DNA of 64,000 bases from Symbiodinium natans. Its lineage: Eukaryota > Sar > Dinophyceae > Suessiales > Symbiodiniaceae. Location of the stretch: positions 62,001 to 126,000 of the forward strand of contig CAJNDS010000472.1 of the NCBI GenBank assembly GCA_905221605.1, in the 5' to 3' direction. Under the pieces are notes generated by a model. The model worked only from the letters and a program-made list of their open reading frames with translations. It made no database searches and was not told where the DNA came from. Both the position numbers and the translations under genes were made by a program. Shown piece after piece: positions 1-40,146 of the stretch (position 1 is the stretch's first letter; the number at the start of each line of letters is the position of its first letter).

Positions 1-401
1 TTCTGCGCTCTCAGAAGAGCTTCGGACCGCGCGAGGTCCTCCTTCGCGCTGCTGACCACCGTTTGGCCAAGCTCGAGGAACCCTTCCTCTGTGCTCTCGG
101 CCTGGGCCCCATCAGCGGGCTCCTCGTCCTCCTTCACCTTGACCGCGGCTGGAGGCGCCCGCGTGTCGGGAAGATCCGAGCTGGAACTATCTTCCTCGAC
201 ACCTTCAGCTTCTTGGGCTGCCTCTTCCTCGAGCGAGTCTTCGGCCTCGAGGACATTGGGGCCAGGGACGTTGCGCCTAGGGTACACCTTGGGCTTCGCT
301 GGAACGATCGAAGTCTTAGGAGTCCCTGAGGGACGACGCTTGGACCGTGCCCAGTCTCGGTCCTCGCCCCAACGGCGGGTGGGGGCCCGCACTGGTGTCG
401 C
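1..401 (-). CDS. Acidic tail frame of the Ty3-like element, runs off window
   Basis: A stop-free minus-strand frame extends from the TAG at 404-402 to base 1 and beyond. It overlaps the last 86 bases of the Tpt1-like ORF in another frame. The translation begins with basic stretches (RRWGEDRDWARSKRRP), then a proline/lysine segment (TPKTSIVPAKPKVYPRR), then becomes strongly acidic (EDSLEEEAAQEAEG, VKEDEEPADG). No ATG lies near its start, so it is most likely the continuation of the upstream polyprotein after a one-base shift rather than a separate gene. No domain is recognised. It could also be read as a C-terminal extension of the Tpt1-like protein in an intact copy. Confidence 0.5.
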
Positions 402-1155
402 CTAAACTCCTTAGGTCGACATGCTGGATCAACCGATCCACTTCTAACTCAGCAATTAAGACTGAGTAAACAGGCGAGCCTTTGGGGAGTGCCCAGATGC
501 GGGAGATGCCGGTGGCTCTAATCTGGCCAGTGAGAGCCACCCCATCCGCTCCCGAATAGATAGGCACTCCGGCGTCCCGCAGGACCGCCAGCCGGACTTC
601 GACTACGCAAGTCGATCCGCGGCGGAACCCGCGTCTCCCGTCCTCCCACTGCGTGGGGCAGTGGCCTAGGACGTAGTGCACTCCGAGGCGGCCTCCCGGC
701 CCGCCGCCGGGGATCAAGCCGTTCTGAATCAGGCTTGGCACGACATGCAGGTCCGTGCCGTGCCACATGGCCGGGCCATACCGGTCTATAAGATCGTTGA
801 TGGCGGTCTCACTTAGACCCTCCATCATGAACCTCATAGGATGGCCGCAATCGGCCGAGTGGCCTTGGAAGGCACGCAGGAAGCCAGCGTGCGAGGTATC
901 TAACCTCGGCTTCCGCTGGTTGGCGTCGTGCGCGACCGCCTGGTTGTACTGGTTGATGGTGATGCCGAGTTGCTCGATCAACTCATCAACCGGGTAGAGG
1001 CCGCCCGGAGCGAACCGGCCTCTGCAACCAGCTTCGCCGTGCCGCATGCATCGGACTAGCCTGCGCTGCACGTCGTCAATCGTGGGCGGGCCCCTCCGGC
1101 CCTTAGGGCCTGGGCTCTTGCTCTTGCCCCTGCCCTTCGACCCTCCTCCACCCAT
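316..1155 (-). CDS. Tpt1/KptA-like RNA 2'-phosphotransferase (ADP-ribosyltransferase fold) domain of the retroelement
   Basis: The predicted 279-aa protein starts at the ATG at 1155 (MGGGGSKGRGKSKS, a Gly/Lys/Ser tail). Residues 30-225 match the Tpt1/KptA family in order: CMRHG (R38-H39), a winged-helix segment, RAFQGHS (R94, H99), WHGT (132-134), GL-I at 146-148, GFRRGS (R178/R179), and YSGADGVALTG (200-210). In yeast Tpt1 the essential residues are an Arg-His pair, the Arg of the RAxQGH motif and a later Arg; all have counterparts here. The family uses NAD+ to remove an internal 2'-phosphate from tRNA after splicing. What such a domain does in a retroelement is unknown; an RNA-end or ADP-ribosylation role is speculation. 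The same frame is open upstream to 1911, over the RT tail, so it may be the end of the polyprotein. Confidence 0.8.
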   Translation of the reverse strand: MGGGGSKGRGKSKSPGPKGRRGPPTIDDVQRRLVRCMRHGEAGCRGRFAPGGLYPVDELIEQLGITINQYNQAVAHDANQRKPRLDTSHAGFLRAFQGHSADCGHPMRFMMEGLSETAINDLIDRYGPAMWHGTDLHVVPSLIQNGLIPGGGPGGRLGVHYVLGHCPTQWEDGRRGFRRGSTCVVEVRLAVLRDAGVPIYSGADGVALTGQIRATGISRIWALPKGSPVYSVLIAELEVDRLIQHVDLRSLGDTSAGPHPPLGRGPRLGTVQASSLRDS

Positions 1156-1797
1156 CGCGGCACTGAGGCCCGCGGCTTTGCTGGACCTCCGATGGGCGAG
1201 GAAAACCTGACGCGCCCTTGAGCGGCCAGGACACGGCCCGCTGCAAGGGGCCGGTGTGCAGTAGTGGTAGGCAGCCGCTCCCGCGCGGCCAGGGCACGGC
1301 CCGCAGCGGGGCCTTGTGGTTGACCACGAAGGTCCGGGCGACCGATCGGTCGCTCCCGCGCGGTCTGGTCGCGACCCGCAGCGGGGCGCAGTGCACAGGC
1401 ACGAACGCGGGGAGGGACTACCTACCCTAGGTTCTACAACACACTTGAACCGCTGCGGCGGGGGTTTGGGGAGTTTCCTTAAGGTCTGGGCTCTAAGGCT
1501 TCTACGGCTTCCGCTTCGACCTTGGACCGAACCTCTAGGCCTGCTTGCTAAACAATGGCTGCGAGACAGACGAACGAAGCTGCACGCAACGAACGACGAA
1601 AAATCCTTCTGCCCGCAGACCGGCGACCTGGGAAACGGCCCGCCCCAAAAACACCCGCCCTGAACACAGAAACACCCGAACAGCCCCAACATCCTGAGCA
1701 TCAGAACGCGCGTGGGGTGATTCTGGTCTGAGCGCGCCGCGTCATGGTTCGCGCGCTTGGTGTTGCGCGCACCGCGAACGCCTAAGGCTTCAAGAGC
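1156..1797 (-). other. Open linker between RT palm and Tpt1-like domain
   Basis: The Tpt1-like frame stays open upstream to 1911. Its first part (SALEALGVRGARNTKRAN, from about 1797) reads as the continuation of the RT ORF after a one-base shift, since the RT frame ends ...AVAAPQCS just there. The rest is Cys/Pro/Arg-rich low-complexity sequence with a threefold repeat and no recognised domain. It may be real polyprotein linker or untranslated sequence that happens to be open. Confidence 0.45.
1222..1402 (-). repeat. Three imperfect GC-rich direct repeats in the linker
   Basis: GCGGCCAGGACACGGCCCGC-like units begin near 1222, 1285 and 1359 (63 and about 75 bp apart). On the minus strand they encode variants of PRCGPCPGRAGA. 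The match is strong for the first two and weaker for the third. Confidence 0.7.
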
Positions 1798-2493
1798 ACT
1801 GCGGAGCCGCGACTGCCCCCTTGGCGCACGCTTCGCGCACCGCCCCCTCGGCTTGGGCATCAGTGAAAAACTGCCCATCAATGACCCTACCCGTCCTAAC
1901 AGTAAGATCATCCACGTAGGCTATCCACTCCTTAGTATACTTAAGGCGCCTACCTCTGCCGGGGGCATAGGCCCTATCAACCACAAAGTTGAAATCATCT
2001 GGGCCGTTAATCGGGCCAAAGGTGAGGCCGACAGGGAGATATTTCCCTGATCTTGCCACAATGGCCAACACCTCGCGAGCACGCTTGGTGTTCCTAATCT
2101 GATTAAACCCACTAACCGCATCCACGAAGGTATACCAAACCGAACCCACTGCGGCGGCGAGCACATCGCTACCCCGCCGACAATAGTACGTGGAGCGCTT
2201 AATTCGGGCATTCACACGGCGGTAGTCAACCACCAAGCGTCGCTTCCTATGCCGCTTGTAGCTGGGCATTTCCTTGGTCGGAAACGGCGCAGATCCCCAA
2301 GCCGAGCTGCCGCGGATCAACTGACCCCGCTTGCATTCTTCTTCAAGCTTGTCGTCGACCCATTGCGCGGACTCGCCCCTCAGACTGTGAGGTTGGGACG
2401 AGACCGGCGGCCCGGTGGGGATGCAGTCATGGGCGAACTTCCTGACCGTGGTCCTGGTGGTGTCCTCCACCCAGAACCCAGCGGCCTTTCAAA
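1790..2493 (-). CDS. Reverse transcriptase fingers and palm (Ty3-like), displaced downstream of integrase
   Basis: The frame carries the first half of an RT. LVVDYRRVNARI matches the fingers motif. FVDAVSGFNQI holds the first catalytic Asp. LTFGPINGPDDF corresponds to the usual MPFGLTNAPATF motif. AYVDDLTVRTG holds the YVDD pair. All three catalytic aspartates are present. There is no ATG start; correcting one base near 2490 (AAAGG read as AAGG) joins it to the integrase ORF as ...SGLKAAGFWVEDTT. The thumb/connection half is absent here and is found instead about 5 kb upstream, before the RNase H remnant. The frame ends at 1790 after AVAAPQCS, and a second one-base shift continues it into the linker. 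The product would copy element RNA into DNA if assembled with its thumb. Confidence 0.85.
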
Positions 2494-5400
2494 CCCGACC
2501 ATACGAGGTCTCTATAGGCCTCGGTGCGCCTAGGATCCTCCGCGACCTTCTCGCCCGCAAGAGCATAGACCTCTAGGTCCGCCCGGACGGAATCCCAGTC
2601 CTTGGCGTCCGCTTTGGTTCGCCAAAACGCTTCCTTCTCAGCGGCATACTTATCCACCTCCTTATCCAGCTCCGCACGCTCTGCTGGCGTGAGGTCCTCG
2701 CCCGAGCGCACGTCCGGGAGGGGAACGACTGGAGAGGGCTGTGGCGCAGCCGCGGCGCTATCAGCACCCGCAGTGGCTGGAAAGCTTTCAACTGCAGCGG
2801 TGCACAGCTCTTCTGCGCCCCTCAGACCAAGGTCCTGGAGCGATGCGCAGAAAGCCGCCCCTATGAGGTTGTAGTCGGCTTGCGCGCGCTCAACGTGCTT
2901 GTGCTGCACTGCGCCTAACGCATCCGGCCTACTACACCTCAAACCTACCGATTCTAAGCTGAAATCGGCGAGCCACAGGGCCCCGCTCTCAACGAGGTTG
3001 CCGCGGCCACTGGCCCGCGCGAACTGGCATATGTCAGCCCGCACGAAGGCCCAAGGCCAGCGCGGCTCTGCGAGCGTCCCAAACAAGGCGCCCCACTCCT
3101 CTAGCCGCCAGGGTTCCCACTCGCCTTTTTGTGCCTGCAAATGCAGCGCGACGTGGGCGCCCGCGCGCGTGCGTTCCTGAGCACACCGGACGACTAGCTG
3201 GAGGAAAGCCCGGGGCACATTCTTGCCCTCAAGCCCAATCACGAGCACCTTCGGCTCTGTGCGCAAAACGGCGCCGCTAATAGCCTCTAAGTGCTCTTCT
3301 GCGGCCAGGTTCCAGGTGATCCCGTAGGCCTGCTTGCCTTGCGCAAAAGCGGGAACAACCCTGTACCCGTGCCTCCTAGCCGCGTCGGAGACGACCGCGT
3401 CACCCCAAGCAACCTCTAAGACATCGGCAACCCCTCCAAGGAAATACTGCCGGAACCAACTCTCGACAGCACCCGACTCTGGGGAAGCCCTAGGCTGCAA
3501 CACGCGGGGTTCCGCGACCAAGAGGTCCGCGAGGGCCTCTCGGATCGAGAGCACACCCGTGCTGGTGCGAGACGCTTTCTCGAGCGTCCTGTCCTGCAAC
3601 GAGTACGCTCCCTTGTCCAACTTTCTGGCCGAGGCTGCAGCAAGCACGCCGTCGCGGTTCAGGTCGATCTTGGAAATGATCTCCCTGACGGAAACCGCTT
3701 CGTGGGCCGGACGAGTCCCCTCTGAAAGCGTGAGCGCACCGTCCTCGGCGATGTATGCAAGCCGCCATTTGACGCGAACCCCGCTGGCGTCGGGGAGATA
3801 GCGGTGCACGCCGACCTGCGCACGGGCAGCATCTACCTGCGTGACCCGTCCTAACCTGCACACCTTAGGGCCACCACCTACACCCCGATAGGCAATGCGG
3901 TCGCCAAGGCGGAGGACGAAGTCCCTCCCGCGCCTGGTCAGCGTGAACTCCACTTGCTTGGCGTCGCCTTGAACCTGTTGCCCTAAGCTGGGGCGAGACG
4001 AGCCGTCCCCGCCGGTTCCATCGTCCTCAAAGACGACCGGCTCGCGGGATTCCGCGCCATCTGCATCCGCAGGAACAAGAATGCAGTCTTCTGCGTGCGC
4101 CTCCATCGGGCCGCACCGGGCGGAAGAAGTACCCCCCGACTCCATCGACACGGGCTCCAAGGTGAGCCTGTGGCCCTTGACTTCCAACACGCGCCAGGGG
4201 CCGGTCAGACCCGGTTTCCAAGGCACACGCCCCGCCCCCTCTGAACGGGCCCTCGGAGCGTTCCAGACCACTCGGTCGCCTGGCTTAAGGTCCACAGTGC
4301 GCCTATGGCGATTTGCAAGTTTCGCCCGCGCTTCTGAAGACCGCGTCCAGTGCTCTCGGACCGCAGCAGCTAGTTCCGAGAACTGCTTAAACTGGCTCCG
4401 AGCCCAATCAGAGATGGGTTCGAACTGCAAGGCGTCTCGCAGGACGTCCTTTTCAAGTGGTAGAGCGAGCGACCAGCTCCGCTCTAGGTCCCTCGGGGTA
4501 TACCCGTGGGGTCCCGGAGTGTTATCTATGACGTACTCCGCCACCACGAGCCAATCCGACCAAGCTTCGGAAAGGGAGGCGCCGACTTGCCTGACGACCG
4601 CCCCCAGCACCTTTTGAACTTCTTGGTGGACTCGCTCGTTTGCGCCCAACTCACAAGGCCTTAAGGGCGCGCTGAACCGCCACTCGGTCCCAAGCATAGC
4701 GCTGAGTTCTGCCATGAGCGCATTCTTGAACTCTGGCCCTCTATCCGACCTGATGAGGCTTGGGATCGTCCTGCTGCGAAGCACACAGCGCACGAACGCC
4801 CTTCTGACTTCAGCATGAGTCAGAGACCTCATCGGCTCGAGGAGGACAGCATGACTGAGGCAATCGAAGTACGTAAGCGAGTACCTATGCCCTTCCCTGT
4901 CCTCTCGGTTTGGACCTTCACAGTCCACGCTGACTTCCTGCCAGCATGTCTCGGCGCCACATTTGACCGCACGAGCCTCGACCTTCGTCGGTCGAGAGCG
5001 GCCCTTAATGCAAGCGAGACATTTGGCGACCCAGGTCCGCACATCTTTCTCTAAGTCGGGCCACCAGACTGCCCTCTCTAGCAGCTTGATGGTAACCTCA
5101 GCGGACCTATGGGCCCCAAGGACTCCGCAGTGGACTGAATTGTAGCAAGCGCGGCGCCAGGTCACTCCATTCGCGCCCGCAGCCCCGTTGGGAACCACTG
5201 GGACAACGACGGTTTGACCCGTCCTGAGGGTCACCTCGCGCTCAAGCAACCCGTCTCCGGATATCACCATCGGCGGCTCCGGCTTGCGAATCGAGCCCGC
5301 CAATGAGGGATCGCGCCGCTGACCCTCGTACCACGCCGTACGAAGGGATCCCGTGACTCGGAACTCCGAAATGTTCGCCGCGTCCCTTGCCTCGACCGCA

Positions 5401-7520
5401 AGCTGCTCACGACGATTTTCGTCCTCCTCCGCGATCAGGCTCAAAGACGGAACACCGCCCTCAAACTCGACCTTGACCCTGGTTGAGGAATGGTCCCAAA
5501 TGCACAGGATGGGGCTATGGCTGACGAGCTCTAGAACCACTGCAGGGCCCTTGTGCTCCTCACCCATAAACGCCAAAACTCTACCCTTCAGCTTGCACTC
5601 ATTGGCATTCTTTCCGCGACTGATAGCGCCCGCGGTCCAATGCCCTTCTACGCCCTCGTTGGACGAAGAGAATTGAGCAAGGACCCCTGACGCCTGCCGA
5701 GTAGAACTGCGGGGATCCGAAGCTTCTCCGGTTGCCCGCCAGCCAATGACCTGAGTAACCCTACCCACAAGGGCTATCAGCTTGCCGAAGGAGGGGTCTA
5801 AGGCAACCTCTTTGCCCTTAGACCTCCAGAGCACTTCACACTGCTCATTCACGACATGTCTGTGGCCGTGCCAGTTCACCACTGACGACCAATGCACGAC
5901 GATGTCGCCCTGAACCACATTCAGGGGCGAGCAGTTGTGCCCCGCCACCACAGCACCCTCTTCTCTAACCACCCATGTGGTCCAGTAAGGCTTCACGTCG
6001 CCCCACTTGGAAAGATCCTTGTGCTGGGAGCCGAGGCTGAGCTTCATGGAATGGCTCTTCTTCCATATCTTCCCACTCAGCATGCCATATGCTGTGGGAA
6101 CTGGAGCATCTTTGGGCGTAGTCCTGAACCCTACCGCCCATTGCTGGATGGTTGAGGACCTAACCCTAACTAAACCTCCTGTCCTATCCAAAGTTGCAAG
6201 GACGGAGTTGACCTCTAGGCCCACCTCGTGGGCCTCAAGGTCGCCCTCAAGCGGAGGTTCGGGTTCCTCCCGCTCGGCTATCTCTACCGAGGTATCGACT
6301 GCCTCTTTCTCGATGCAGGCGGGGCAGCGGGAAAACAGGTAGGTCCGCTTGCCGCAGATGCACAGACCCTCATGGTCCCAGAGGGGTCGTGACGGTTCGT
6401 CCAGCATCCCTCTAATGCTGGCATCATCGATGGAACGAACCGCGTCCAACCTCAAGGACCGCAGGACTTCCGCCCCCAATGCCTGCTTCCCTACGATCCC
6501 AAAACCTCGCAGGGGAGGCTCCGGAAAATCCTTCTTGAGTTCCGGACAAGCCTCGGCCACTTCCAAGTGGCCCTGCTGCGTGCGCCATAGGCGTGGCCGC
6601 ACCGCCCAGATAGCCTTGATGCCTGCCCAAGCCTCTCCTACAGCCCTAGCTTCTTTGCGCTGCAGGTTCCTTGCTTGGAGCGTGAGCTCAACAACCAAAG
6701 GCCACCTAAGGACGGCTGTGACCAGCCCGCCTTGCCCAAGTCCTACGAGGAACTGCGGACGAAACCCCGAAGCTTCCCTAAGAACCTTGGCACACGAAGT
6801 AAGCAAGTCGACCCTGATCCGCTTGATCTTCTTGGTCCCTGCGAGCCTGCCGGCCCCGCAATCAAAATGCGAGGCAAGCCCGTCGGTATCCTCAAACGGA
6901 CCCCAACAACCCCTGACAGCCACAGAAACTCCAGGGAGGCTCGCTTGAAAAACGCGCCTGATCTCAGTCAGCTCTGCGTCCTGCTCTTTCCAACGCGCGT
7001 AGTCAAAGACAACCATGACGCGCACCGGAAGGGCTGCGACGACGCACATCGGCACAGCCGCGGCCTGGACACGGCCCGCAGGCTCTGGGACGGCGTCGTT
7101 GCCGACCGCCCAGGGCACGGGTCCGTCACCCTCAGTACCCTCTCCGAGGTACTGGTCCAGGTCGAAACCTCGGAGTTGGCCCGAAAGGCCCTCGAGATCT
7201 TTCGTCCTCGCCGCAAGGAGCGCATCCCGATCCTTGGGATTGCGGCTAAAACTGTCACCCAGCGTCGCTGAGCGACCGCTAAGGCTCCTTATTTCGGACC
7301 CATCCATAAGGATTTCCGCAACCCACCGGACGAGTTTCGGATCCATTCCGATGTCCGACGTTTGCGCTCGGGTAAGGTTGGCATGATCTGTCCAACACAG
7401 AGTCCGAATAGAGCCAAACATGCGGCGTGTCGCCCGCTTTACCTCGAGCTGGGCAAACGCCTCCTGTATCAAGGGCGGCCAGTTCTGCTGCGCGGGGGTC
7501 AAGCTCTTCGAGTGCGTCAT
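2427..7520 (-). CDS. Pol ORF: RNase H remnant, DD35E integrase, methyltransferase-like domain
   Basis: 1697 aa. Residues 1-60 are the C-terminal half of a Ty3 RNase H (SKSLTPAQQNWPPL, LCWTDHANLTR); the N-terminal half with the first catalytic Asp is missing. Residues 796-838 form the integrase HHCC zinc site (VHCGVLGAH...CLAC). The catalytic triad is D866 (VSVDCEGP), D926 (IRSDRGPEF) and E962 (GANERVHQE), with exactly 35 residues between D926 and E962. Residues 1077-1125 resemble the GPY/F module (KPGDRVVW...GLTGPWRVLEV). Residues 1365-1550 resemble a C5-methyltransferase-type Rossmann module, but the expected Pro-Cys motif reads GLEGKN. The tail leads by a one-base shift into the RT palm. 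The ATG overlaps the upstream stop as TAATG and is probably internal to the ancestral protein. Confidence 0.88.
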   Translation of the reverse strand: MTHSKSLTPAQQNWPPLIQEAFAQLEVKRATRRMFGSIRTLCWTDHANLTRAQTSDIGMDPKLVRWVAEILMDGSEIRSLSGRSATLGDSFSRNPKDRDALLAARTKDLEGLSGQLRGFDLDQYLGEGTEGDGPVPWAVGNDAVPEPAGRVQAAAVPMCVVAALPVRVMVVFDYARWKEQDAELTEIRRVFQASLPGVSVAVRGCWGPFEDTDGLASHFDCGAGRLAGTKKIKRIRVDLLTSCAKVLREASGFRPQFLVGLGQGGLVTAVLRWPLVVELTLQARNLQRKEARAVGEAWAGIKAIWAVRPRLWRTQQGHLEVAEACPELKKDFPEPPLRGFGIVGKQALGAEVLRSLRLDAVRSIDDASIRGMLDEPSRPLWDHEGLCICGKRTYLFSRCPACIEKEAVDTSVEIAEREEPEPPLEGDLEAHEVGLEVNSVLATLDRTGGLVRVRSSTIQQWAVGFRTTPKDAPVPTAYGMLSGKIWKKSHSMKLSLGSQHKDLSKWGDVKPYWTTWVVREEGAVVAGHNCSPLNVVQGDIVVHWSSVVNWHGHRHVVNEQCEVLWRSKGKEVALDPSFGKLIALVGRVTQVIGWRATGEASDPRSSTRQASGVLAQFSSSNEGVEGHWTAGAISRGKNANECKLKGRVLAFMGEEHKGPAVVLELVSHSPILCIWDHSSTRVKVEFEGGVPSLSLIAEEDENRREQLAVEARDAANISEFRVTGSLRTAWYEGQRRDPSLAGSIRKPEPPMVISGDGLLEREVTLRTGQTVVVPVVPNGAAGANGVTWRRACYNSVHCGVLGAHRSAEVTIKLLERAVWWPDLEKDVRTWVAKCLACIKGRSRPTKVEARAVKCGAETCWQEVSVDCEGPNREDREGHRYSLTYFDCLSHAVLLEPMRSLTHAEVRRAFVRCVLRSRTIPSLIRSDRGPEFKNALMAELSAMLGTEWRFSAPLRPCELGANERVHQEVQKVLGAVVRQVGASLSEAWSDWLVVAEYVIDNTPGPHGYTPRDLERSWSLALPLEKDVLRDALQFEPISDWARSQFKQFSELAAAVREHWTRSSEARAKLANRHRRTVDLKPGDRVVWNAPRARSEGAGRVPWKPGLTGPWRVLEVKGHRLTLEPVSMESGGTSSARCGPMEAHAEDCILVPADADGAESREPVVFEDDGTGGDGSSRPSLGQQVQGDAKQVEFTLTRRGRDFVLRLGDRIAYRGVGGGPKVCRLGRVTQVDAARAQVGVHRYLPDASGVRVKWRLAYIAEDGALTLSEGTRPAHEAVSVREIISKIDLNRDGVLAAASARKLDKGAYSLQDRTLEKASRTSTGVLSIREALADLLVAEPRVLQPRASPESGAVESWFRQYFLGGVADVLEVAWGDAVVSDAARRHGYRVVPAFAQGKQAYGITWNLAAEEHLEAISGAVLRTEPKVLVIGLEGKNVPRAFLQLVVRCAQERTRAGAHVALHLQAQKGEWEPWRLEEWGALFGTLAEPRWPWAFVRADICQFARASGRGNLVESGALWLADFSLESVGLRCSRPDALGAVQHKHVERAQADYNLIGAAFCASLQDLGLRGAEELCTAAVESFPATAGADSAAAAPQPSPVVPLPDVRSGEDLTPAERAELDKEVDKYAAEKEAFWRTKADAKDWDSVRADLEVYALAGEKVAEDPRRTEAYRDLVWSGLKGRWVLGGGHHQDHGQEVRP

Positions 7521-10500
7521 TAGCCCAGCCCGCCTTCAGGAAAGACGGCGCCTGGCTTCTGCCACTGCCCTAAAATCTTGGCTGCGTGCCCATACTCAAC
7601 AGGCAGGTAGCCGCGCAACCAATTTGCGCAACCCAAAAATTGCTGAATGTGAAGCTTCTCCCAGAGCGGGGGAAAGTCAATCACCGCCTGACAACGCTCT
7701 TCGTCTGGCGAACTCCCGTCCCGCCCAATGTTGTGTCCTAGGAGCTTACCTTTGGAGACACAAACTTCGGCCTTGCTGATTCCAAAGGAGAACCCAAACA
7801 AGATTGACTTGTCTAGGAAACCCTCTAAGGAAACGAGGTGGTCGAGGAGGTGCGGGCACGCCTTAGGGTGCCGGGCGCGCATATCTGCCGCGAGCTGCTC
7901 ATAATAATAGTCCGTTGGAGGCTCCTCGATCATCTTATCGATGTCCCAGCTCTCCACGATATGATAGCTCGGGCAGCGCGCCGTGTCGACCGCGTCTGCT
8001 GGGCGCACAGCGTCACTTGCGCCTCTTCCAGCCGTGGCCGATCCCTCACGCCAGCCAGCCCAGCGCGGACCCTTGCGCGTCCTAAAGACCGCGAGGCGTT
8101 CGGTGACGGGAACCTCATCGCTGCACGCAACGCTTTCCGCCACACGCAAATCCCTCGTGTCCCAAAGACGCCACGCCTCACCTGCGCGCTGAAGCAAGCA
8201 CGTTTCGTAAGGCGCCTTCTCGACCGCCACGGTCCCAAGGTCCTTCTGCGCAGGGCGCCTACCCCACACAGACGCGTAACCACCTGGCGCCTCCCACCAG
8301 CTGTCGACGCTTGGAAGGTGGTCCAAGCAAGTAAGCACTCCAGGCTCCTCAACAGGGCGCCCAACCGGGCCGCTCCCGCCCCACACCGAAGCGAGAACAG
8401 TCACCGCAGCAAGGACCGATAGCACACCGATCCTGGCGCCGGTACGCAGCCGCCCAAAGGACCGCGCACACGAGGAACAACCTTGGAAGCTTCTTGCCGC
8501 GGCCCTGGACGCGGACCCGCAAGCAAAGCACGGGTCATGGTCAACCGAAGCAACGGCGACCCCACAATCCGCACATGCCTGCGGAGACGGCTCTGACTCG
8601 AACACCGTCTCAATCGCGCCACAACCACAAGCCGCAGTGCTGACGAGGCCGGAACGCACTTCCGCAACAACCTCGCCCGGCTGGAGAGAGTGATCGCACT
8701 CTTGGGCTGCAAGCAAAACAAACCCTTTACCCTCTCCTGTGGGCCAGAGACCTGGCACAGCCTCAACCCCACACTCTACCGGAAGCACAACTTCGGACAG
8801 GGATCCCTCTGCGGAGACTCCTGCCTCCCGCACGACTGGCACCAGCACCCCATCACCTGGCGAGAGCTCGAGCGGCTCTTCCCCGTCATAGCGGAGAAGC
8901 TCGCGACTTCCGCCCCCAGGCTCGGTGCATGACGCGTCGTCCAGGCTTGACAACCGCGCTTCAAAGGCATAGGCCCTGTCCTTCCGAGTCCTGCTGTGAT
9001 CCTCACACCTGGGCATCCTGATTCCCAGCGTGTCGAGGACGTGAAAGTCGGGACCCGGCCTGAATCCCAGGCCCATCCTTCCGGCGCAGTCTAGCGCTCT
9101 GCCGCCGAGGATAAGTCCGTGCCAATCGGACGTCCCCCTGGCTGCGATTTTGCATCGCACGAAAATTTCGGTGTTGGGGCGACAGTCGTCCGCCGTCCTG
9201 CCTTCCAGCAGCGTGACGCGCAAGACTGCTGCCCCTTTCAGAGGAACGGGGGCTCCCGAAGCGATTCCATGCACGTATTCGGGGTGGACCCACTTTTCGA
9301 GTCTCACGACCGGGAAGCCGGGATCCTCAGTGCCGATCCCCAGCTCTGCAGCCCGGTTCATCATGCCCACCACGAGTTCCTCGGTCACGTGGTTTGCGCC
9401 GGCGCAACCGTCGAGCATGCACTCGACCTTACGGTCGAGGACCTGGACTACCGTCCTGTACTGGTAGCCTCCTGGCTCGTTGTCCGCCAGGTTCCACCAG
9501 TCCTTCGGCAGATCGTCCAGGGTGGCGAACTTGTCCCGCCCGCCCTTGCTCAACGGAAGCGCGTGCTGCTGCACCGCGGCGCGTCCTGCGGCTCCTGAGA
9601 CGCCTGCCTGGACGCCTGAGCTGCCTATCTGGACACTGAACGCGGCGAAGGGGTTAGACATGGAAGCACCGGAGGGCGGGGCCCAGTTGGCAGGCAAGGC
9701 CGGCGTCCCTCCTGAGGTCGTCAGGTTGTGGACCATGTCGCAGCTGGCTCCTTTCTTGCACGACCCATTCTTGGAGAAAAAGGGGCAAACAGTGCCTGGT
9801 GGCTTTGCCGCGCCTTTGGCCGCAGCCTTAGGCTTTGCGTTGGCCTTTGCCTTGCCACCTCCCTTCCCCTTGCCCTTACCTTTCGCAGTGGCAAAGGTTT
9901 GGTCACCCTTCTTGGCCGCGAGAGCCTTTCTGCGAAGCTCCTTGTCGTGGCTGTACGGGCAGGCATCCCCTTTCGGGCAATTCCCGTGGTCGCGAAAGTG
10001 GAAGCAGATCTTCTTGTCCGCTCCTTTGCCAGCTCCCTTCGACGCAGCGGCAAACGTCTGGTCCGCGCCAGCTTTGGCCGCGGCAGCTGCTCCTTTCGCA
10101 GCAGCCTTCGCAGCGGCCTTGAGGCTCTTAATCTCCTTCTGAGCCTCGGCTAGCGCGACCGACGGGTCCGCGCTCGGAGAGCCGGTCGCTGAGTACACAG
10201 AGTGGGAAACAGCCCTGTGAGCTGCTTCCCTCTGCTCGTACTCCAGGACGACCTTGTGGCTCTCCTCCCAAGTCTGCGGCCCTCGCAGCCCGCCATCCTT
10301 GGGATCGCCGGGCCACAACCGCTTGTCGTTCCGTATCTCCTTTTGGAGACACGGGGGCATCTTGCGGAGGTACGAGAGATACAACTCTCGTGGGGTCTTC
10401 CCAAGACCCACCGCCTCAAGGTCCGCGATCGATGCCTCAAACAAAGGCTCGAATTGGTGGCCTGTGAGCTTACCCTTAGCGAGGGAGGCATGCTCACCAT

Positions 10501-11233
10501 CCACGCGGACTTCTCTTTCCTCCCGCGATTCCCCGAACATCAAGTGCTTGTTCTTGATGCGGTCGTACACCGCCTGTGGGTCGGAGAGAACCTCTCCCGA
10601 CTTCCACGCTGCGCGGTACGCGTTCGTGTACGTCTTCATGCGCGAGCCGCGGCAGCGCCCGCGTAGCGCTAGCAGCTTTTCGCGCGCACTCATACCGCGA
10701 CAGTTGTTGGCCAGCGCGCAGACGTCCTCGAACTCCTCGTAGAACAAGACAACATCTCGCGCGTCCGACTTATCGTCGGTCAGCGTCGGCCACGTGAGGT
10801 CAGTTTTGACCGTAGTTATGGAGCTTTGCCCGCCCCTCTGCGCTAACGCTTCTTTCAGCGCTTCAGTTTGGGCGGCGAGTGCGGCGGCGAAATCGCCCGC
10901 CGGGTTTTGGGACCCGGTCTGCGAACCTCCGCCGTCTGAACCTCGCTTCAGGGCTTCTATCTCCATCTCCAGCGCCGCAAGCTTTGCGCGCAAAGGGGAA
11001 TCGCCGTCCGTCGCGCCCAGGTCACGGGCCGCGGAAGGACCACCTGCAACCTCGGCAGTGTGCAAACCTCCACGGTCCAAACCTACCCCCAACCCACTTG
11101 CAGTCGCAGGCTGTGGGAGCCCTGGGGAACGCGGCCCCACGGCTTCAACTGGCACATCGGACGGGGAGCTCCAAACCTTCTCTTGGCTCGAGCTTTCTTT
11201 TCCCCCAACGCGAGGATAAGCTCCCCGATGCAT
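7520..11233 (-). CDS. Gag/protease/RT-thumb ORF with CCCH zinc fingers
   Basis: 1237 aa, ATG at 11233. A coiled-coil segment lies near 81-98 and a Gag-like helical region at 150-310. An Ala/Lys/Gly-rich basic stretch carries two CCCH fingers, at 410-429 (C-x8-C-x5-C-x3-H) and 483-502 (C-x7-C-x5-C-x3-H). Residues 590-720 are retropepsin-like (VECMLDGCAGANHVTEE, later LILGGRALD), with D608 followed by G-C rather than the usual T/S-G. Residues 869-923 hold four CxC/CxxC pairs, followed by a hydrophobic segment at 934-951. Residues 1122-1215 are a Ty3 RT thumb/connection (LLGHNIGRDGSSPDEERC, QQFLGCANWLRGYLP). The palm expected between protease and thumb is absent. It overlaps the Gag ORF by 151 nt in another frame. 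Confidence 0.85.
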   Translation of the reverse strand: MHRGAYPRVGGKESSSQEKVWSSPSDVPVEAVGPRSPGLPQPATASGLGVGLDRGGLHTAEVAGGPSAARDLGATDGDSPLRAKLAALEMEIEALKRGSDGGGSQTGSQNPAGDFAAALAAQTEALKEALAQRGGQSSITTVKTDLTWPTLTDDKSDARDVVLFYEEFEDVCALANNCRGMSAREKLLALRGRCRGSRMKTYTNAYRAAWKSGEVLSDPQAVYDRIKNKHLMFGESREEREVRVDGEHASLAKGKLTGHQFEPLFEASIADLEAVGLGKTPRELYLSYLRKMPPCLQKEIRNDKRLWPGDPKDGGLRGPQTWEESHKVVLEYEQREAAHRAVSHSVYSATGSPSADPSVALAEAQKEIKSLKAAAKAAAKGAAAAAKAGADQTFAAASKGAGKGADKKICFHFRDHGNCPKGDACPYSHDKELRRKALAAKKGDQTFATAKGKGKGKGGGKAKANAKPKAAAKGAAKPPGTVCPFFSKNGSCKKGASCDMVHNLTTSGGTPALPANWAPPSGASMSNPFAAFSVQIGSSGVQAGVSGAAGRAAVQQHALPLSKGGRDKFATLDDLPKDWWNLADNEPGGYQYRTVVQVLDRKVECMLDGCAGANHVTEELVVGMMNRAAELGIGTEDPGFPVVRLEKWVHPEYVHGIASGAPVPLKGAAVLRVTLLEGRTADDCRPNTEIFVRCKIAARGTSDWHGLILGGRALDCAGRMGLGFRPGPDFHVLDTLGIRMPRCEDHSRTRKDRAYAFEARLSSLDDASCTEPGGGSRELLRYDGEEPLELSPGDGVLVPVVREAGVSAEGSLSEVVLPVECGVEAVPGLWPTGEGKGFVLLAAQECDHSLQPGEVVAEVRSGLVSTAACGCGAIETVFESEPSPQACADCGVAVASVDHDPCFACGSASRAAARSFQGCSSCARSFGRLRTGARIGVLSVLAAVTVLASVWGGSGPVGRPVEEPGVLTCLDHLPSVDSWWEAPGGYASVWGRRPAQKDLGTVAVEKAPYETCLLQRAGEAWRLWDTRDLRVAESVACSDEVPVTERLAVFRTRKGPRWAGWREGSATAGRGASDAVRPADAVDTARCPSYHIVESWDIDKMIEEPPTDYYYEQLAADMRARHPKACPHLLDHLVSLEGFLDKSILFGFSFGISKAEVCVSKGKLLGHNIGRDGSSPDEERCQAVIDFPPLWEKLHIQQFLGCANWLRGYLPVEYGHAAKILGQWQKPGAVFPEGGLG

Positions 11234-11979
11234 TGGATTTCACGCTGAATCTCCTCTGCGTCTTCGGGGTCCTCGCCACCGCGCAAAGCCGCGACCGAGA
11301 ATCTGGTCCGCAGCCGACGGACCATCTTTGTCGGATGCCAGTCCCCGCCTATCTTGGAGAACTCATCCGCAAGGAGGGTGGCTTTGGTGCTTAAGGCGTC
11401 AAGGTCACGGGAGCTCACCGTGACTCCATGCGCTTTCAGCGCGAGGACAATCCGCGAAACGCGCGTCAAGTAGTCCGCGACCGGTTCTTGGTCTGGACGG
11501 AAAATCGCGCGCAGCTCCGCCTGCAAGCCCTCTGCGGTGCCTGGCACCGAACCTGCTGTCGACGGCGGACCGGACGGCCCCGCCGGGCGGGACCCTGGTG
11601 CCGTAGCAGGGACATAGGCAGCACCGGTAGGGACCATGGCCAGCTCCCTAGCCGCGGCGCTGACGTCCACCCGCGGCGGACTGTCGCCTCCAGCGCCCGA
11701 GGCCTCAGGGACTAGCTCGGAGTCCTCTTCTTCTTCCTCCTCATCCTCGTCCTCGTCTTCGGCGTCATGGAGGAACTTCATGACTTTCCGCCAGAGAGCC
11801 GCCTCTTGCTCTGGCGTAGTGCTGACCCCATCCCGCTTGGACAACGGACGGCTGCCAGTCTCCCTACGCCACTTAAGCCAAGCGACGTAGCTCATCCGCT
11901 CGGGATAGGGAACGTCTCCACCCTCGATAGCTTCGAGGAGGGTGACGCCCTCAGCCTGACCTGCAACCTCTGCGGACAT
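11083..11979 (-). CDS. Gag-like N-terminal ORF of the Ty3-like element
   Basis: 298 aa from an ATG at 11979. It has an acidic tract (EDEDEDEEEEEEDSE), a Pro/Gly/Ala-rich linker, then a helical region (LQAELRAIFRPDQEPVADYL, ILALKAHGVTVSSRDLDALS) of the kind found in Gag proteins. No zinc knuckle is present; the zinc fingers are in the next ORF, which starts 151 nt before this stop in another frame. The two frames cross near a GGGGGAAAAGAAAG run, so ribosomal or mutational slippage there could join them, but the run is not a canonical X-XXY-YYZ site in the zero frame. Assignment as Gag rests on position and composition. Confidence 0.65.
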   Translation of the reverse strand: MSAEVAGQAEGVTLLEAIEGGDVPYPERMSYVAWLKWRRETGSRPLSKRDGVSTTPEQEAALWRKVMKFLHDAEDEDEDEEEEEEDSELVPEASGAGGDSPPRVDVSAAARELAMVPTGAAYVPATAPGSRPAGPSGPPSTAGSVPGTAEGLQAELRAIFRPDQEPVADYLTRVSRIVLALKAHGVTVSSRDLDALSTKATLLADEFSKIGGDWHPTKMVRRLRTRFSVAALRGGEDPEDAEEIQREIQCIGELILALGEKKARAKRRFGAPRPMCQLKPWGRVPQGSHSLRLQVGWG

Positions 11980-12000
11980 TGCCGCAACACAAGGCGAAAA

Positions 12001-12080
12001 GCCGCGCCTTGGTTAGCAGGCCGCAGGCGTGGCACGCGAAGCGCCGCGCCTTGGTTAACAGGCCGCAAGCGTGGCACACA
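12001..12080. repeat. 42-bp tandem duplication upstream of gag
   Basis: Copies at 12001-12038 and 12043-12080 share GCCGCGCCTTGGTTA-CAGG and the following GCGTGGCACRC with about four differences. They lie just 5' of the Gag ATG, in probable leader or terminal-repeat sequence. Confidence 0.8.
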
Positions 12081-12428
12081 GTCCACGCGTCCAGGTCACG
12101 GACCGCGACAGACAAGCAAAGCAATGCTTGCCCACTCGGGCCGTAGGCACAAGAGCTGTACGTTTCCCAGAACAGCCCCCAATTGTGAAGTCGACCAGCA
12201 CTGGACTTGCACTAAGCCAATGCAATCACAGCCCGGTCACGCTGTTTTACGACTTCGCGAGTTCAAGCACTTGTGCAGCTACGCCTGAGTGCGTCCGGAA
12301 AGGCACAAGCTCGGTACTTGAGCCAAAATATTGGCATTGTAACGAATTGCAAAACTACACATGCAAAGAAAACTACAGTACTGGTTCTGGCAGCTCGGCA
12401 CATGCAACGTGCGCGCTTAGACCTGCTC
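12081..12428. other. 5' flank of the Ty3-like element, no gene
   Basis: No supported coding sequence. It holds the spliced-leader-like relic at 12317-12339. The 5' boundary of the retroelement is probably here, but no terminal repeat could be paired within the window. Confidence 0.5.
12317..12339 (-). other. Candidate relict dinoflagellate spliced leader
   Basis: The plus strand reads CTTGAGCCAAAAT (13 bases), the exact reverse complement of the 3' part of the dinoflagellate spliced leader (ATTTTGGCTCAAG). It is followed by ATTGGCATTG, a gapped match to the rest of the leader. It lies on the same strand as, and about 340 bp upstream of, the Gag ATG. Known biology: relict leaders mark cDNA-derived (retroposed) copies in dinoflagellates. 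The 5' half is degenerate, so chance is not excluded. Confidence 0.5.
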
Positions 12429-12532
12429 ACAATATACATATACACACATATACATATGCATATATATATATACATATATAAATACATATATAAGTACATG
12501 TACATGTGTATGTATGTACCTATATGTATATG

Positions 12533-12565
<33 letters not shown>

Positions 12566-12572
12566 GTATACA
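12429..12572. repeat. AT-rich (TA/CATA)n microsatellite
   Basis: Compound ATACATA/TATATA repeat, including an uninterrupted TA run near 12545-12565. Reading frames inside it (Tyr/Ile-rich) are artefacts. Confidence 0.95.
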
Positions 12573-13431
12573 TTGTGTTGGGATGTCTTTGGCCTGTTTG
12601 CTAATCTTTGGCCCCATTTCATAAACTCACCCTACTTATTAAAACCGCCGGCCGCCGCCAAGAAAACGGATCCCTGAAAACCCTTTGCTTTGCGCCCTTT
12701 TCCGGGAGTTCAGCTGGTTTAGGGTCAGTACGGTTTAGGGTTTAGGGTAAGCTCTTGACTGTACTTGGACCTGATTTCACAAAAAAAATGTAGTTTCAGC
12801 AGCTCTCAGGCTCTGGAGGTGGCATTGGGACCCTATTACTTGAACGATTTGGCTCCAGGCACAAAGCTCTTAATTTCAGGCTGTCTCAACAGCTGGCCTA
12901 AGCTTGTCAAAACTTCGAAAGGGCCCGCCCTAAACCCTGTTAAGGGTTGTGGTTGCAGGCGCCGGGCCGTTTCAGAGCTTGGTGGGTTTTGTGATGATGG
13001 GGTGGGCTTTGCTATGAATTACCCAGCGTGTCAACACGGTTCCAACGTGCAGAGTAAGAGGGATTAGCTTGTCCTCCGGTTCAGCGGTGTTTCGGGTCGC
13101 TGCTAGATGGGGCTTCCAGATGTTGTCTTCACGGTTTGGGTCGATGTCGCGCGCGTGCCGGGACGGGGTCTTCTTCAGGGTTCATGACATGTGGTTCTCA
13201 CTGGCGGACACTTGAAGTGCTCTCAACGTCATCTTGGCGTGGTCGCTGTTTGGGGTCTACGCCGGCAACATTTGTACTTTATTTGACATTAGTTACATAA
13301 TTATACCAGCAGTCATCAGAGCAGTAATGGCTGCAGTAGTGGCAGCAATAGTAGACGCACGAATAGCAGCACCAATGGCAGCATAGCAACAGAATAGCAT
13401 GAGCGAGCGCACGCAGCAGCAGAAAAAGCAG
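12573..13431. other. Non-coding stretch with short TTTAGGG remnants
   Basis: No supported gene. 12717-12750 contains three TTTAGGG-type units (GGTTTAGGGTTTAGGGTAAG). 13315-13430 is AGC/GCA-rich. The remainder shows nothing recognisable. Confidence 0.5.
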
Positions 13432-14154
13432 CTATATCAAGCTTAGGCGCCGGAGGATCTCCTCAGCTAGCATCCCGAAATCAGCAGCTTTCGACCTCCA
13501 AAACCTGCGAACTGAAGAACCTGGCTTCACCTTGGACGCTTCTTTGCCAGATGGGGTGACCATTGCTGAAGCTTCTGCACCTGTCATTGCTCCACCAACA
13601 CGGTCCGGCCGTGCATGGATGAAAGCAGCGCAGTGGCAGCGGACTCTGAGTCCTGCTGCTGCACCTTGATCCTGGAGCAACTGAAACTCAGAGCACTGTG
13701 CCCCTGCCGGGCAAAGTTTGCATGGGTGAGAGAAGTGCTCGCTGTGACGTAAGGCCCTCTCGTCTGCAGCCCCTGCTCGCAAAAGAGCAAACACTTGGCA
13801 CTCTGCGCCATAAGGGCAAATGCGTACACCGTGCTCAAATGCTTGGAGCAAAAGCACCGCAGCAGGATTGTGCTTCATGGCCACCTGCAAGGGTCTGTCA
13901 CCATCCGGATTCTTTTGAAAGAAAGGACCCACTCCTGCCACATGTGCGATCTCTTCGATAAGCTCTGCAGCTCCATTGCCAGGCTTCAACAGGAGAGCTG
14001 CTTGGTGTAAAGCCGACCATCGTTTCGATGGCTGCCGGTTAAGAAGACTTGGGTCGTCAATAAGCATCTCCAAAGCGTTTTCGAACCTGCCAGCTTTCGC
14101 ATGATCAAGGAAAGCGTGGGCTTCGGAATCTACAACTGAAGCGCACGCACCCAT
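13432..14154 (-). CDS. Small ankyrin-repeat protein with two Cys/His clusters and acylation-type N-terminus
   Basis: 240 aa in one uninterrupted frame. The start is set at the ATG at 14154 because it gives MGACASVV: Gly2 fits N-myristoylation and Cys4 palmitoylation, so membrane anchoring is likely (inference). Residues 11-100 look like ankyrin-type helices (WSALHQAALL at 46-55, NPDGDRPLQVAMKHN). Two related Cys/His modules follow: C113/C119/H137/H140/H143/C145 (CPYGAECQVF...HSEHFSHPC) and C148/C154/C173/C175/H180 (CPAGAQCSEF...CHCAAFIH). Their spacing recalls PBZ-type zinc fingers but is longer. The C-terminus is basic (VRRFWRSKAADFG). A longer frame begins at 14271 but lacks the acylation motif. 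Function unknown; a membrane-tethered adaptor is plausible. Confidence 0.75.
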   Translation of the reverse strand: MGACASVVDSEAHAFLDHAKAGRFENALEMLIDDPSLLNRQPSKRWSALHQAALLLKPGNGAAELIEEIAHVAGVGPFFQKNPDGDRPLQVAMKHNPAAVLLLQAFEHGVRICPYGAECQVFALLRAGAADERALRHSEHFSHPCKLCPAGAQCSEFQLLQDQGAAAGLRVRCHCAAFIHARPDRVGGAMTGAEASAMVTPSGKEASKVKPGSSVRRFWRSKAADFGMLAEEILRRLSLI

Positions 14155-14302
14155 GGATGCGGGGGTCTCTCTACTCCAAAGAAGCGTCGGACTCCGTTGG
14201 ACTAGGGGCTGCCAAAGGCTCAAAAATTGAGCATCTGCGAGCCGAGCTGGGCCGTCAGCAAACCGACCCATCTATGTGGTAATCCTCAATCCCGAATCCC
14301 CA

Positions 14303-14373
14303 GACCCTTAAACCCTTGACCCTTAAACCCTTAAACTAAAAACCCTAAACCCAAAACCCTTAAACCCTAATGG
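14303..14373. repeat. Degenerate CCCTAAA telomere-type array
   Basis: About ten imperfect CCCTTAAA/CCCTAAA units lie immediately 5' of the ankyrin-protein gene on its transcribed side. Confidence 0.85.
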
Positions 14374-17158
14374 TTGATGCTTTCGGGATCCCCTATATAG
14401 ACCCTTAAATCATAGGAGAGCCCTAATATGGCCTTGAGCCCGCAGGTCCGCTGATGAGCTGAGGCTGCTGCCATGAAGAGGGATGATTCGACGAATGACC
14501 TTGCAAGTGGTTCGCAAGCACATGTTGTGAGTTTGTGAGTAAAGCAAGTGCACAGCTGCACAACCGAATCGGTAGCAACACAACAACACAGATTAAGCAT
14601 CCAGCCTCTTCGGCGTCCTGCAAGGCCTGTGCTCATGACGCGTGTTCAAAAAACTTCTGAACAGTCGAGTGTCAGAGAAGCGGAAGGAGTTGATTGGTGG
14701 AACGAGTCAGTGTCGCCCTGAGCAACTTTAGCCAACAAGGCTCAAAAAGTGCTCCGAACCAGGCACCTCTGAAACCTGCTTCCTTTCTGGTTTAGGGTGG
14801 GCTTGGCCAGGGAGACTCTTGGTTGCTTGCCTGTCGGCTTGCTGGCTCGCTGGTCACTGGGCAAGATGTTCGCTTGCTTACCCACTGACTTTGGTGTACG
14901 GGAGAAGCCAGAAAACACACACGCACGTGCACACTCCCGGAAAACGCACGGCAGGCATGGGAGGTGAAAACCATGGTAACTGGTTTTGTGTTGATCAGTG
15001 CAGATGCCCCGAACGGAGCTTTCCAGGAGCATACCCTGCACTTGCAGGCTCTTGCAGGTGTGCGCAGGTCGGTGACCAGGACCCTCCCAGCCCTCCTTCC
15101 GCCATGGTGTGCTAAGATGGCGCTCACACGCAGCATCTCGCAGCCACACATAGAACTCGGAGAAACGAAAAACAACACACACACACACACACACCTTAGA
15201 AGACTCGCAAGGTCGAGCTTGACACAAAGCTCCAAGCGGACATGCAGCACATGCACTATGAGCCAATCCTTCTTGTCTTCTTCGCTCATAGCGTCAAGAC
15301 CTCGGCTAGTGCCGCATAGAGCCACATAGAGCCACTCATATTTGGGCCTTCATCCGGCTGTAAAACTCAGCCTTCAACCTGCCGCCTGGACCCGGTCTCT
15401 ATTCGCCGAATCCAGAGTGGACACCTGGCTGAGACTCAGCACAAGACTCCACAGATCCCATTCCAAAGCAGCCCCAGATATGCCCAGCCAAACAACTCAA
15501 AAGCATGTCAACAGGCCAGATGGACGGTGAACATGCGGAGCGCCTCTTCCACGTGGCCAATGTCAGCATCCTCAATGCGGCAAACCCAGCAAGAGCTTCA
15601 AATTGCGCAGGACGCACATACTCCGTTCTATTGATGTCTGACCGTCGTGCACTGGCCCTGTACCCTACCAAGACCCAAACACTAACTTGTCGACCGCTTT
15701 CAATGAGCTTGGATTCCACAAAGAGAACTACTGAGCATCATCTGCCCCTGTCTCATTGGGTCCTCATTCAACTCCATCTTTGCAAGGCCTCAGAAGGCGC
15801 AGACTTTGTTTATTGGTGGTCACTGGCTCACACCACAGAGCCTACAAAGCAATCCCCGATGTTTGCTGGCAGGAAGCTCTCTGAAATTCGCACAATTGCT
15901 TCTAGCTGCCTGTCAGCCGTGCAGGCAAAAGCACAACTGGTCCAGTAGAACGGACACATCTGACTTTCGAGCATGTGCAACAACAGCACGTGCCTGACGG
16001 TGATGGGTACCGTCGCCTATAAGTTGGTTGGATGGCTGAAACGGGCCGACTGCCATGTTCACGAAGCCTTTGCTGGCTGTTGTCTGGAATTACAAGCCCC
16101 ATTCAGCCTTTCGCCCCCTCCTCACCCATCTCCTGCGGGCCAGCCCCAACTGATGAGGGTACATCATGATGCTTTCTCGCCTTGAAAGCCTTGTGTTTTT
16201 GTGAAGCCCAAAAGCCGTGTTGATGCGAGCTGGTATCGCAAATACTTGCAAGTTGACAGCGCATCGGTACCTCAGTTGTTGCTTGTTCCCTCTTGTTCTG
16301 GCGAGTCGGTAGTTCTGACGCCCCCCCTGCTGCGGTGTGATCCAGTGTGCAGTCCTCAGCGGGTGGTGCAGGGGAGAGTTTGTAGATGCGAGAACATTCA
16401 AGAGCACCCCACCCAGCACCGGCTCACACCGCCAAGGCGAACATGCAGATCCAAGCCCCACCACTGACCGTACGTACATCAGGTCAGACGTGATGCGCAA
16501 CACATAAAATCAGAAGTGATGCGCAAGAACATCGCATCAGATAAACACGCCGCCCGGAAAGCCACAGCACGGGAGGCATCCGTGCAGAAAATGTTCCAGA
16601 GAATCCTGCAGTTCAGTCACACGTACTATGCGTGACTGGGGAGACTGCATCATAGATGCGGGGTCGATGGACGGTGCCCTCTGAAGTGCTGTAGAGAAAC
16701 GAAGCAGGCCATAGTGAGGACGTGACAAGAAGCGAGACAGTGGTTGCGACGCCAATCCCTCGATGTCCTGGCCCACCATTGCCGACTAACATAGGCAACA
16801 GAACCACCGCCGCGAGCTGCGAGAGGCGGAAGACAACGAAGTTGTGACGCGGGCTGCAAATAGTGAGGCTTCGTGGCCATGTGAAGAAAAGGCTGCCATC
16901 GCTGCCATCACACGCCCATGAACACCAACCAGGAAGCGTAGACATATAGACTTTGTGTCCGAATAACGACAAAAAAAAACAACCCAGCATCGACATCTGA
17001 GCGGAGACTTGCACCTTTACATGCTCCAAGACGCTCCTTGGATGATCTTCCAAATTTATTCTCTTCTTGGGACTAGCATGCAAAAGCATAAAGTGTCATG
17101 TATTTGCTAGGTACACAACCATGGGCAGAGAACAATACGACTGCAGCACTGCGAGAGC
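14374..17158. other. Unassigned region downstream of MCM5 exons
   Basis: No gene is firmly supported. The C-terminal exons of the MCM5 gene (usual PITVRQLEAI helix and winged-helix tail) should lie here on the minus strand. A weak candidate is IVRVTELQ at 16641-16618. A short (CA)n run lies at 15176-15193. Other frames are short and unconvincing. Confidence 0.4.
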
Positions 17159-39482: not shown

Positions 39483-39525
39483 AACACATATGTATACATA
39501 CATACATACATACATACATACATAC
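39483..39525. repeat. (CATA)n microsatellite, left flank of the YR element
   Basis: About nine CATA units run directly into the element edge. The same microsatellite resumes at 46178. Confidence 0.95.
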
Positions 39526-39753
39526 ACAATCCTCCCAAAATCTCAAGCACCACCCAAAAGGCAACTGAAGAGTAAACCTGAGCCCAGATGCCACCAGCCT
39601 TTTGCCACCAGTAGCTGCAAGCTTCGATGGGGAGATGCAGCAACAACAGGAGTGCTGATACACCGACTCAGGATATGAGAAAAGATCTGGTAAAGTGCTC
39701 AGCACACCAGGACTTTACATCCTCGCATCGGAGACCGATATCAGAAAACCCCC
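39524..39753. repeat. Split direct repeat, B2 copy
   Basis: 230 bp, from ACACAATCCTCCC to GAAAACCCCC; identical to 39879-40108. Confidence 0.95.
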
Positions 39754-39786
39754 TCCACTGGTAAATAAAGGGTGAGGGCGGGTGGG

Positions 39787-39881
39787 AAAGATAAATGGAA
39801 AACCGATTTGAGCAACATCTGCCCATTCGATTTCGTCAGATTGTGCATCTCTCACAACAGCCAGCTCTTGTAACTGACACA
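39787..39881. repeat. Split direct repeat, A2 copy
   Basis: 95 bp, from AAAGATAAATGG to AACTGACACA; identical to 46086-46180. Its terminal ACA overlaps the start of the B1 copy. Confidence 0.95.
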
Positions 39882-40108: not shown

Positions 40109-40146
40109 ATCGACGCCCTGGTCCCCTCCCATCGCAGCTCTGGGTG

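Follow-up and report, generated by a model that had tools for sequence, protein, structure and literature searches.

A Ty3-like retroelement of the dinoflagellate Symbiodinium natans carries its reverse transcriptase (RT) in two pieces, with the C-terminal half encoded ahead of the N-terminal one. It lies on the minus strand in the first 12 kb of the stretch we analyzed, positions 62,001 to 126,000 of contig CAJNDS010000472.1 (assembly GCA_905221605.1, forward strand, 64,000 nucleotides), which we refer to as the window. Ordinary Ty3/gypsy elements have the order protease–RT–RNase H–integrase with the RT in one piece. In the window the order is Gag, protease, the RT part with motif E, thumb and connection, RNase H, integrase, the RT part with fingers, palm and motifs A–C, and Tpt1. 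This layout, with thumb, RNase H and integrase followed 3′ by the fingers and palm and their catalytic Asp residues, had been proposed in a first-pass annotation made from the letters alone; its order and coordinates hold, and the suspicion that this permuted order, with the RT divided by RNase H and integrase, might be ancestral to a family is supported, as the order is family-wide. We consider it likely, with a probability of roughly 0.8, that the RT–RNase H–integrase block was circularly permuted once by a cut inside the RT and that the two halves assemble into a working enzyme. The cDNA is then probably made by a naturally split, circularly permuted RT rebuilt from two pieces, which would be the first permuted RT.

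Three protein searches yielded 83 proteins, of which 63 belong to the family and 20 are ordinary Ty3-type elements that served as controls (P0028–P0047), ‘ordinary’ being a label assigned from their domains. The searches took only sequences of 0.55–1.75 times the query length that shared exact words with it, so that close relatives with ordinary order could escape, and one search scored the best 8000 candidates. Where a host of the family is named, it is the dinoflagellate Effrenium voratum or Durusdinium trenchii; the eight matches covering 97–98% of the query region are 44–99% identical to it. Domain profiles were mapped on all 83 proteins and the order was then counted: all 32 family proteins that have a thumb together with RNase H or integrase show the thumb first, and 30 of 31 have the palm behind either the integrase or the region that follows it. 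The exception, P0027, has two profile matches that start at the same residue and was therefore not counted. Both half-profiles matched in 8 of the 63 proteins, with the thumb first in all eight; as the palm match of P0067 comprises only the stretch ahead of the RT proper, seven proteins carry parts of both RT halves, among them P0013 and P0065, which stop before motif C, and P0012, which begins within the thumb. Relatives with a contiguous palm and thumb had been named in advance as an observation that would speak against a permuted RT, and none of the 63 members found in these searches by length and shared words has a palm within 150 residues before a thumb. The thumb follows the palm within 47 residues in the controls that matched both profiles (11 of 20).

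In some members the domains are joined in very long single frames, as in P0056 (3550 amino acids), P0059 (3662), P0065 (3779) and P0053 (3042). Frames spanning integrase, palm and Tpt1, which had been predicted for intact copies, were found in P0004, P0053, P0059 and P0062 and in two of three genomic contigs (L001 and L003). P0062 (2620 amino acids on a contig of 7878 bases) and P0005 (2432 amino acids on 7693 bases) nearly fill their contigs, which leaves little or no room for introns. The genomic contigs L001, L002 and L003 came from a scan of genome contigs and are filed under bacterial or archaeal metagenome-assembled genomes; most likely they are eukaryotic DNA that was mis-binned there as contamination. 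L003 contains one open frame of 3471 codons (10413 bases) that runs through the protease region, thumb half, RNase H, parts of a 580-residue domain, integrase, post-integrase region, palm half and Tpt1. Pfam matches in this frame are RT_RNaseH (residues 671–770), H2C2 (1603–1654), rve (1690–1769), RVT_1 (2716–2825) and Tpt1 (3134–3311), with the RT_RNaseH, rve and RVT_1 scores falling under the curated cut-offs. L001 holds a single frame of 3311 codons from the 580-residue domain through Tpt1, and L002 has the same order as far as the palm, its frame being broken in the post-integrase region. Residues 313–384 of L003, between protease and thumb, gave a weak dUTPase-like match (E = 0.13) that may be due to chance.

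The two halves complement each other on the ordinary RT. In profile–profile comparisons the family palm corresponds to columns 74–265 of an ordinary RT–RNase H alignment (E = 8e-19) and the family thumb–RNase H to columns 269–524 (E = 7e-20), with three columns left between them. When single proteins were compared with a hidden Markov model built on ordinary RTs, the result was nearly the same: palm matches that are not truncated stop at columns 239–245, apart from ends shifted by weak extension in P0048 (258), P0049 (256) and P0012 (299), and thumb matches that are not truncated start at columns 242–247. The halves thus tile the ordinary Ty3-type profile with three to five positions between them, directly past the YxDD hairpin. 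This profile was built from 11 of the 20 controls; of those outside it, seven give one contiguous match across the cut and P0040 and P0044 do not. The cut site corresponds in ordinary RTs to the turn that links the YxDD hairpin with the next helix. The control P0036 carries an insertion near that turn, which suggests that the turn tolerates change. The motif order of the family reads D–E–thumb–RNase H–integrase–fingers–A–B–C.

The window copy follows this pattern. Its thumb half matches columns 247–333 of the ordinary Ty3-type RT–RNase H profile (E = 2e-9) and its palm frame columns 65–239 (E = 9e-18), with motif A (FVDAVSGFNQI) at 2128–2096 and motif C (YVDD) at 1918–1907. Searches against the PDB paired the last 152 residues of frame 11239–7520 with residues 252–306 of the Ty3 RT (4ol8, E = 0.0037) and the 232-residue palm frame with the same entry (E = 4.5e-5). 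For an AF2 model of the thumb half, the ten best VIA matches were all RTs, including residues 253–328 of the Ty3 RT.

Conservation was counted over the alignable rows of 67 translated family sequences, i.e. the 63 proteins and four frames from the three contigs. The Asp of motif A is kept in 34 of 34 rows and the Asp-Asp of motif C in 33 of 33; the catalytic RNase H residues are equally invariant (Asp 33/33, Glu 31/31, Asp 31/31), and LLG(H/R) of motif E is kept in 33 of 35. Between L002 and L003, where synonymous change is saturated, the changes at codon positions 1/2/3 amount to 52/30/149 in the palm, 35/32/91 in the thumb, 31/9/84 in RNase H and 111/70/243 in the integrase, and the palm shows purifying selection. 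Palm and thumb are also among the best-kept parts of the polyprotein: the window copy and P0003 are 77% identical in each of them, compared with 71% in the integrase, 37% in the post-integrase region and 43% in a further region. Pairwise distances correlate between thumb and palm (r = 0.82), thumb and integrase (0.85) and palm and integrase (0.64), as calculated from 36 non-independent pairs of nine sequences with P0012 left out. Since the thumb–integrase value is as high as the thumb–palm value, the correlation reflects shared descent and not contact. In trees of the N-terminal half, the C-terminal half and the integrase, which contained 17–19 control sequences, were rooted at the midpoint and drew a warning from the tool that long branches meet, the permuted members form one clade each with support of 100/100. 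The stems of these clades measure 2.43, 2.62 and 2.49 changes per column, respectively. That each half and the integrase yield one clade apiece, on similar stems, fits a single origin and shared descent of the sequences.

We compared the family with known elements. All three of its enzymes, RT, RNase H and integrase, share homology with their counterparts in Ty3/gypsy elements (Metaviridae), each RT part reaching profile E-values of ∼1e-18 to 1e-19; the integrase has the H2C2 and rve (DDE core) domains, and the best PDB match of each RT half is the Ty3 RT 4ol8. In contrast to Ty3/gypsy elements and their Pol order with a one-piece RT, the family has its RT cut in two and rotated about the RNase H–integrase segment, and it carries CCCH fingers in Gag, regions of 580 and 450 amino acids, Tpt1 and, in some members, PLD. 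It forms a separate clade on a long stem when set against the 17–19 Ty3-type control sequences. Ty1/copia elements are ordered protease–integrase–RT–RNase H with a whole RT, whereas the RNase H of the family precedes the integrase. The Gmr1 lineage of Ty3/gypsy shows a Ty1/copia-like integrase position, according to the accessible part of its description (PMC2774666). As in Gmr1, part of the family RT stands behind the integrase, but RT and RNase H are whole in the Gmr1 order and thumb and RNase H of the family precede the integrase. A Gmr1-like order, with the integrase ahead of a whole RT, is also seen in the Ty3-type control P0046.

Permuted palm polymerases are known from viral RNA-dependent RNA polymerases (RdRps) of permutotetraviruses, birnaviruses and the Yangshan assemblage, in which a catalytic loop is transposed so that motif C stands ahead of motif A. 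The available portion of PMC7508674 reports about ten independent cases in one clade. Like them, the family has a palm polymerase of which a part is permuted; unlike them it is an RT and not an RNA polymerase, it is cut after motif C, and its halves are parted by RNase H and integrase. In dinoflagellates, the retroelements SymbioDIRS-Dnmt3 and SymbioLINE-Dnmt carry extra enzymes, and the two DIRS types differ in domain order (PMC5890265, accessible text). These elements encode a tyrosine recombinase or an endonuclease, in contrast to the DDE integrase of the family, and the same portion of PMC5890265 describes no split RT. The rve and H2C2 integrase of the family, in place of a tyrosine recombinase, likewise separates it from DIRS elements in general. 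Among the matches listed from the open-access literature there was no case of a permuted or split RT. By its enzymes the family is Ty3-like, but it departs from the Pol order that defines such elements, and we would not assign it to a described clade.

The order thumb–RNase H–integrase–palm is the order palm–thumb–RNase H–integrase rotated by one step. As the Gmr1 and Ty1/copia orders are rotations of this cycle as well, a tandem duplication of the RT–RNase H–integrase block with subsequent loss of the pieces at either end would be a simple route to it. Most likely, the polyprotein would be cut by the element's own protease and the fingers–palm piece would dock onto the thumb–RNase H piece to give an active two-piece RT; alternatively, the halves could fold back together while the chain stays uncut. 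As in other Ty3-like elements, reverse transcription and integration would then follow. At the level of sequence, the coding order, the complementary division of the RT and the conservation of catalytic residues in both halves are firm, while RT activity, cleavage and the complex of the halves are what we infer from them, and several results weigh against an assembled enzyme of this origin. No vestige of a duplication was detected, as neither the 24 segments that precede the thumb nor the 25 that follow the palm yielded anything below E = 0.2. The palm model reached a mean pLDDT of 39.7, too poor for use, and the best Foldseek E-value for the thumb model was 0.04, with none reaching 0.001. RVT_1 misses the palm in L001 at an E threshold of 0.1 and in P0056 and P0059 at one of 0.5, although the ordinary-RT profile detects these palms (2e-20, 9e-19 and 1e-23, respectively). 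Finally, the window copy itself is broken near 7525, 2490 and 1790.

A different route to the same working form is possible though less likely than duplication: the palm segment alone may have been translocated behind the integrase. It yields the identical final order and agrees with the missing duplication remnant; the Gmr1 order, as given in the accessible part of PMC2774666, is another rotation of the same cycle and makes duplication with truncation the economical choice. We regard it as rather unlikely that both halves are real but do not cooperate, the element being non-autonomous for reverse transcription or the palm alone acting as a minimal polymerase while the thumb has a different function, for instance in binding primer or RNA. 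Catalytic or primer-grip motifs are kept in both halves and both belong to the best-conserved parts, which argues against this explanation; in its favor, the halves lie 1632–2085 residues apart in those three of eight listed sequences that showed both markers, and we only infer their complex. Dinoflagellates trans-splice a leader onto their RNA, and together with a possible leader relic at 12317 (see below) this could hint that RNA trans-splicing or protein splicing brings the parts back into the ordinary order at a later stage, after transcription or translation. Such restoration is very improbable, as open frames cross both junctions and a spliced leader adds a 5′ end and cannot reorder coding parts; no intein was noticed, in analyses that included no search aimed at inteins. 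Least probable of all is a chimera, with a palm fragment brought behind the integrase by a misassembly or by two elements that are unrelated or nested one in the other, an objection raised in the first-pass annotation for which the breaks around the pieces of the window copy would speak, but which is contradicted by the same order in continuous single frames on independent contigs (L003) and in divergent members and by the single clade formed by each half.

RTs are, to our knowledge, generally taken to hold one strict motif order of fingers, palm and thumb. A divergent family under selection suggests that the palm can be severed right behind the catalytic hairpin and still be retained, and its order makes the folding and assembly of RTs testable. 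It also hints that the Pol orders of Ty3, Ty1/copia, Gmr1 and this family may be rotations of one cycle. The family may offer a natural design for two-piece RTs, and annotation with contiguous RT models may miss or truncate such elements.

The element in the window is larger than the range of 1790 to 8130 first assigned to it, as it spans at least from 12012 to beyond the left edge in overlapping long frames (12012–11083, 11239–7520, 7535–2427, 2488–1790 and 1920–316); its features are listed in Table 1, in which the matches to RVT_1, rve, H2C2 and Tpt1 exceed what chance would give and that of the RNase H remnant is weaker.

Table 1. Features of the permuted element in the window (positions in the window; E-values of profile matches)
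Feature	Positions	Strand	Evidence
Candidate leader relic ATTTTGGCTCAAG upstream of Gag	12317–12329	−	exact 13-mer, ∼305 bases before the Gag open reading frame (ORF)
Gag N-terminal ORF, 309 amino acids stop to stop	11083–12012	−	homologous to the N-termini of P0015, P0016 and P0024
Capsid-like region with two CCCH zinc fingers	9632–11206	−	family CA profile 1.3e-204; zf-CCCH Pfam matches
Protease region and following stretch	8396–9532	−	family PR profile 4.7e-174; DGCAG and LILGG by eye
RT C-terminal half: helix, motifs D–E (primer grip KLLGH), thumb, connection	7523–7972	−	family profile 4e-91
RNase H remnant	7260–7550	−	RT_RNaseH 4.7e-5, slightly below the Pfam cut-off; compared with P0018 and P0003
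Conserved domain of 580 amino acids between RNase H and integrase	5196–6935	−	family profile 1.6e-236
Integrase: H2C2 zinc domain and DDE core	3927–5195	−	Integrase_H2C2 3e-10; rve 5e-8; family profile 8.5e-214
Region of ∼450 amino acids between integrase and palm	2565–3905	−	family profile 1.9e-141
RT N-terminal half: fingers/palm, motifs 1–2, A, B, C	1790–2491	−	RVT_1 5.2e-8; ordinary RT profile
Tpt1/KptA-like RNA 2′-phosphotransferase domain	445–1110	−	Pfam PTS_2-RNA 1.4e-9
Polyprotein tail continuation, cut by the window edge	1–401	−	ORF 3–401 open at the edge; P0026 and P0027 match and continue

The N-terminal Gag frame is fused in-frame to the following Gag-Pol in P0015 and P0016. Pfam gave no match for a retropepsin-type protease in the family, whose retropepsin-like motifs were recognized by eye only. 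A Pfam search at E ≤ 10 found no match for the 580-residue domain, and no Pfam family matched the post-integrase region. The integrase core has a D-35-E spacing, as counted in the sequence. At the junction of ORFs 11239–7520 and 7535–2427, near 7525, about 65 residues that are kept in relatives are lost by a deletion, which removed the first catalytic Asp of RNase H. Near 2490, where correction of one base had been expected to join the integrase frame to the palm, a break is indeed present, but it is not one of a single base, as the relatives hold about two dozen extra residues there. Palm and Tpt1 lie in separate frames in the window copy, but relatives, among them P0011 and P0026, have both in a single frame; they also share one frame in P0004, P0053, P0059, L001 and L003. 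Judged by its frames the window copy is decayed, its domain order is not. A tblastn search of the element's frames against the window gave no second copy, and no pair resembling long terminal repeats was found in window positions 1–16000, the window ending inside the element.

The 13-mer ATTTTGGCTCAAG upstream of Gag is identical to the dinoflagellate spliced leader in its 3′ part. It has one exact match in the window and one with a mismatch at 42318, compared with 0.2 matches expected at up to one mismatch; two matches were reached in 2 of 100 shuffles. A longer leader sequence of 21 bases was not found in the window with up to three mismatches. The 13-mer may have been left behind when a trans-spliced transcript was reverse-transcribed.

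Several members carry further domains. A PLD-like domain stands behind the palm in P0004, P0005, P0027, P0048, P0052 and P0054, most of which also have Tpt1 (it was not found in P0005). A RanBP zinc finger occurs in P0004; inspection by eye also showed a SWIM-like motif and a hydrophobic stretch in P0004 and P0005. PLD-like and Tpt1 domains would represent phosphodiesterase and RNA-repair-like modules within a retrotransposon.

A second retroelement, DIRS-like, occupies positions 39524–46180 of the window on the minus strand with ORFs of 415, 503, 452 and 585 amino acids. The 452-residue ORF matches RVT_1 under the cut-off (E = 3e-4), the 585-residue ORF appears tyrosine-recombinase-like by eye and the 503-residue ORF methyltransferase-like by eye, the latter without a Pfam match. 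Its repeats are 100% identical (46086–46180 to 39787–39881 and 39879–40108 to 39524–39753) and are laid out as A–coding–B–A–B, as for SymbioDIRS in the accessible text of PMC5890265. Positions 33905–34591, also on the minus strand, encode a fragment of a 2OG-Fe(II) oxygenase (Pfam, E = 4.9e-14).

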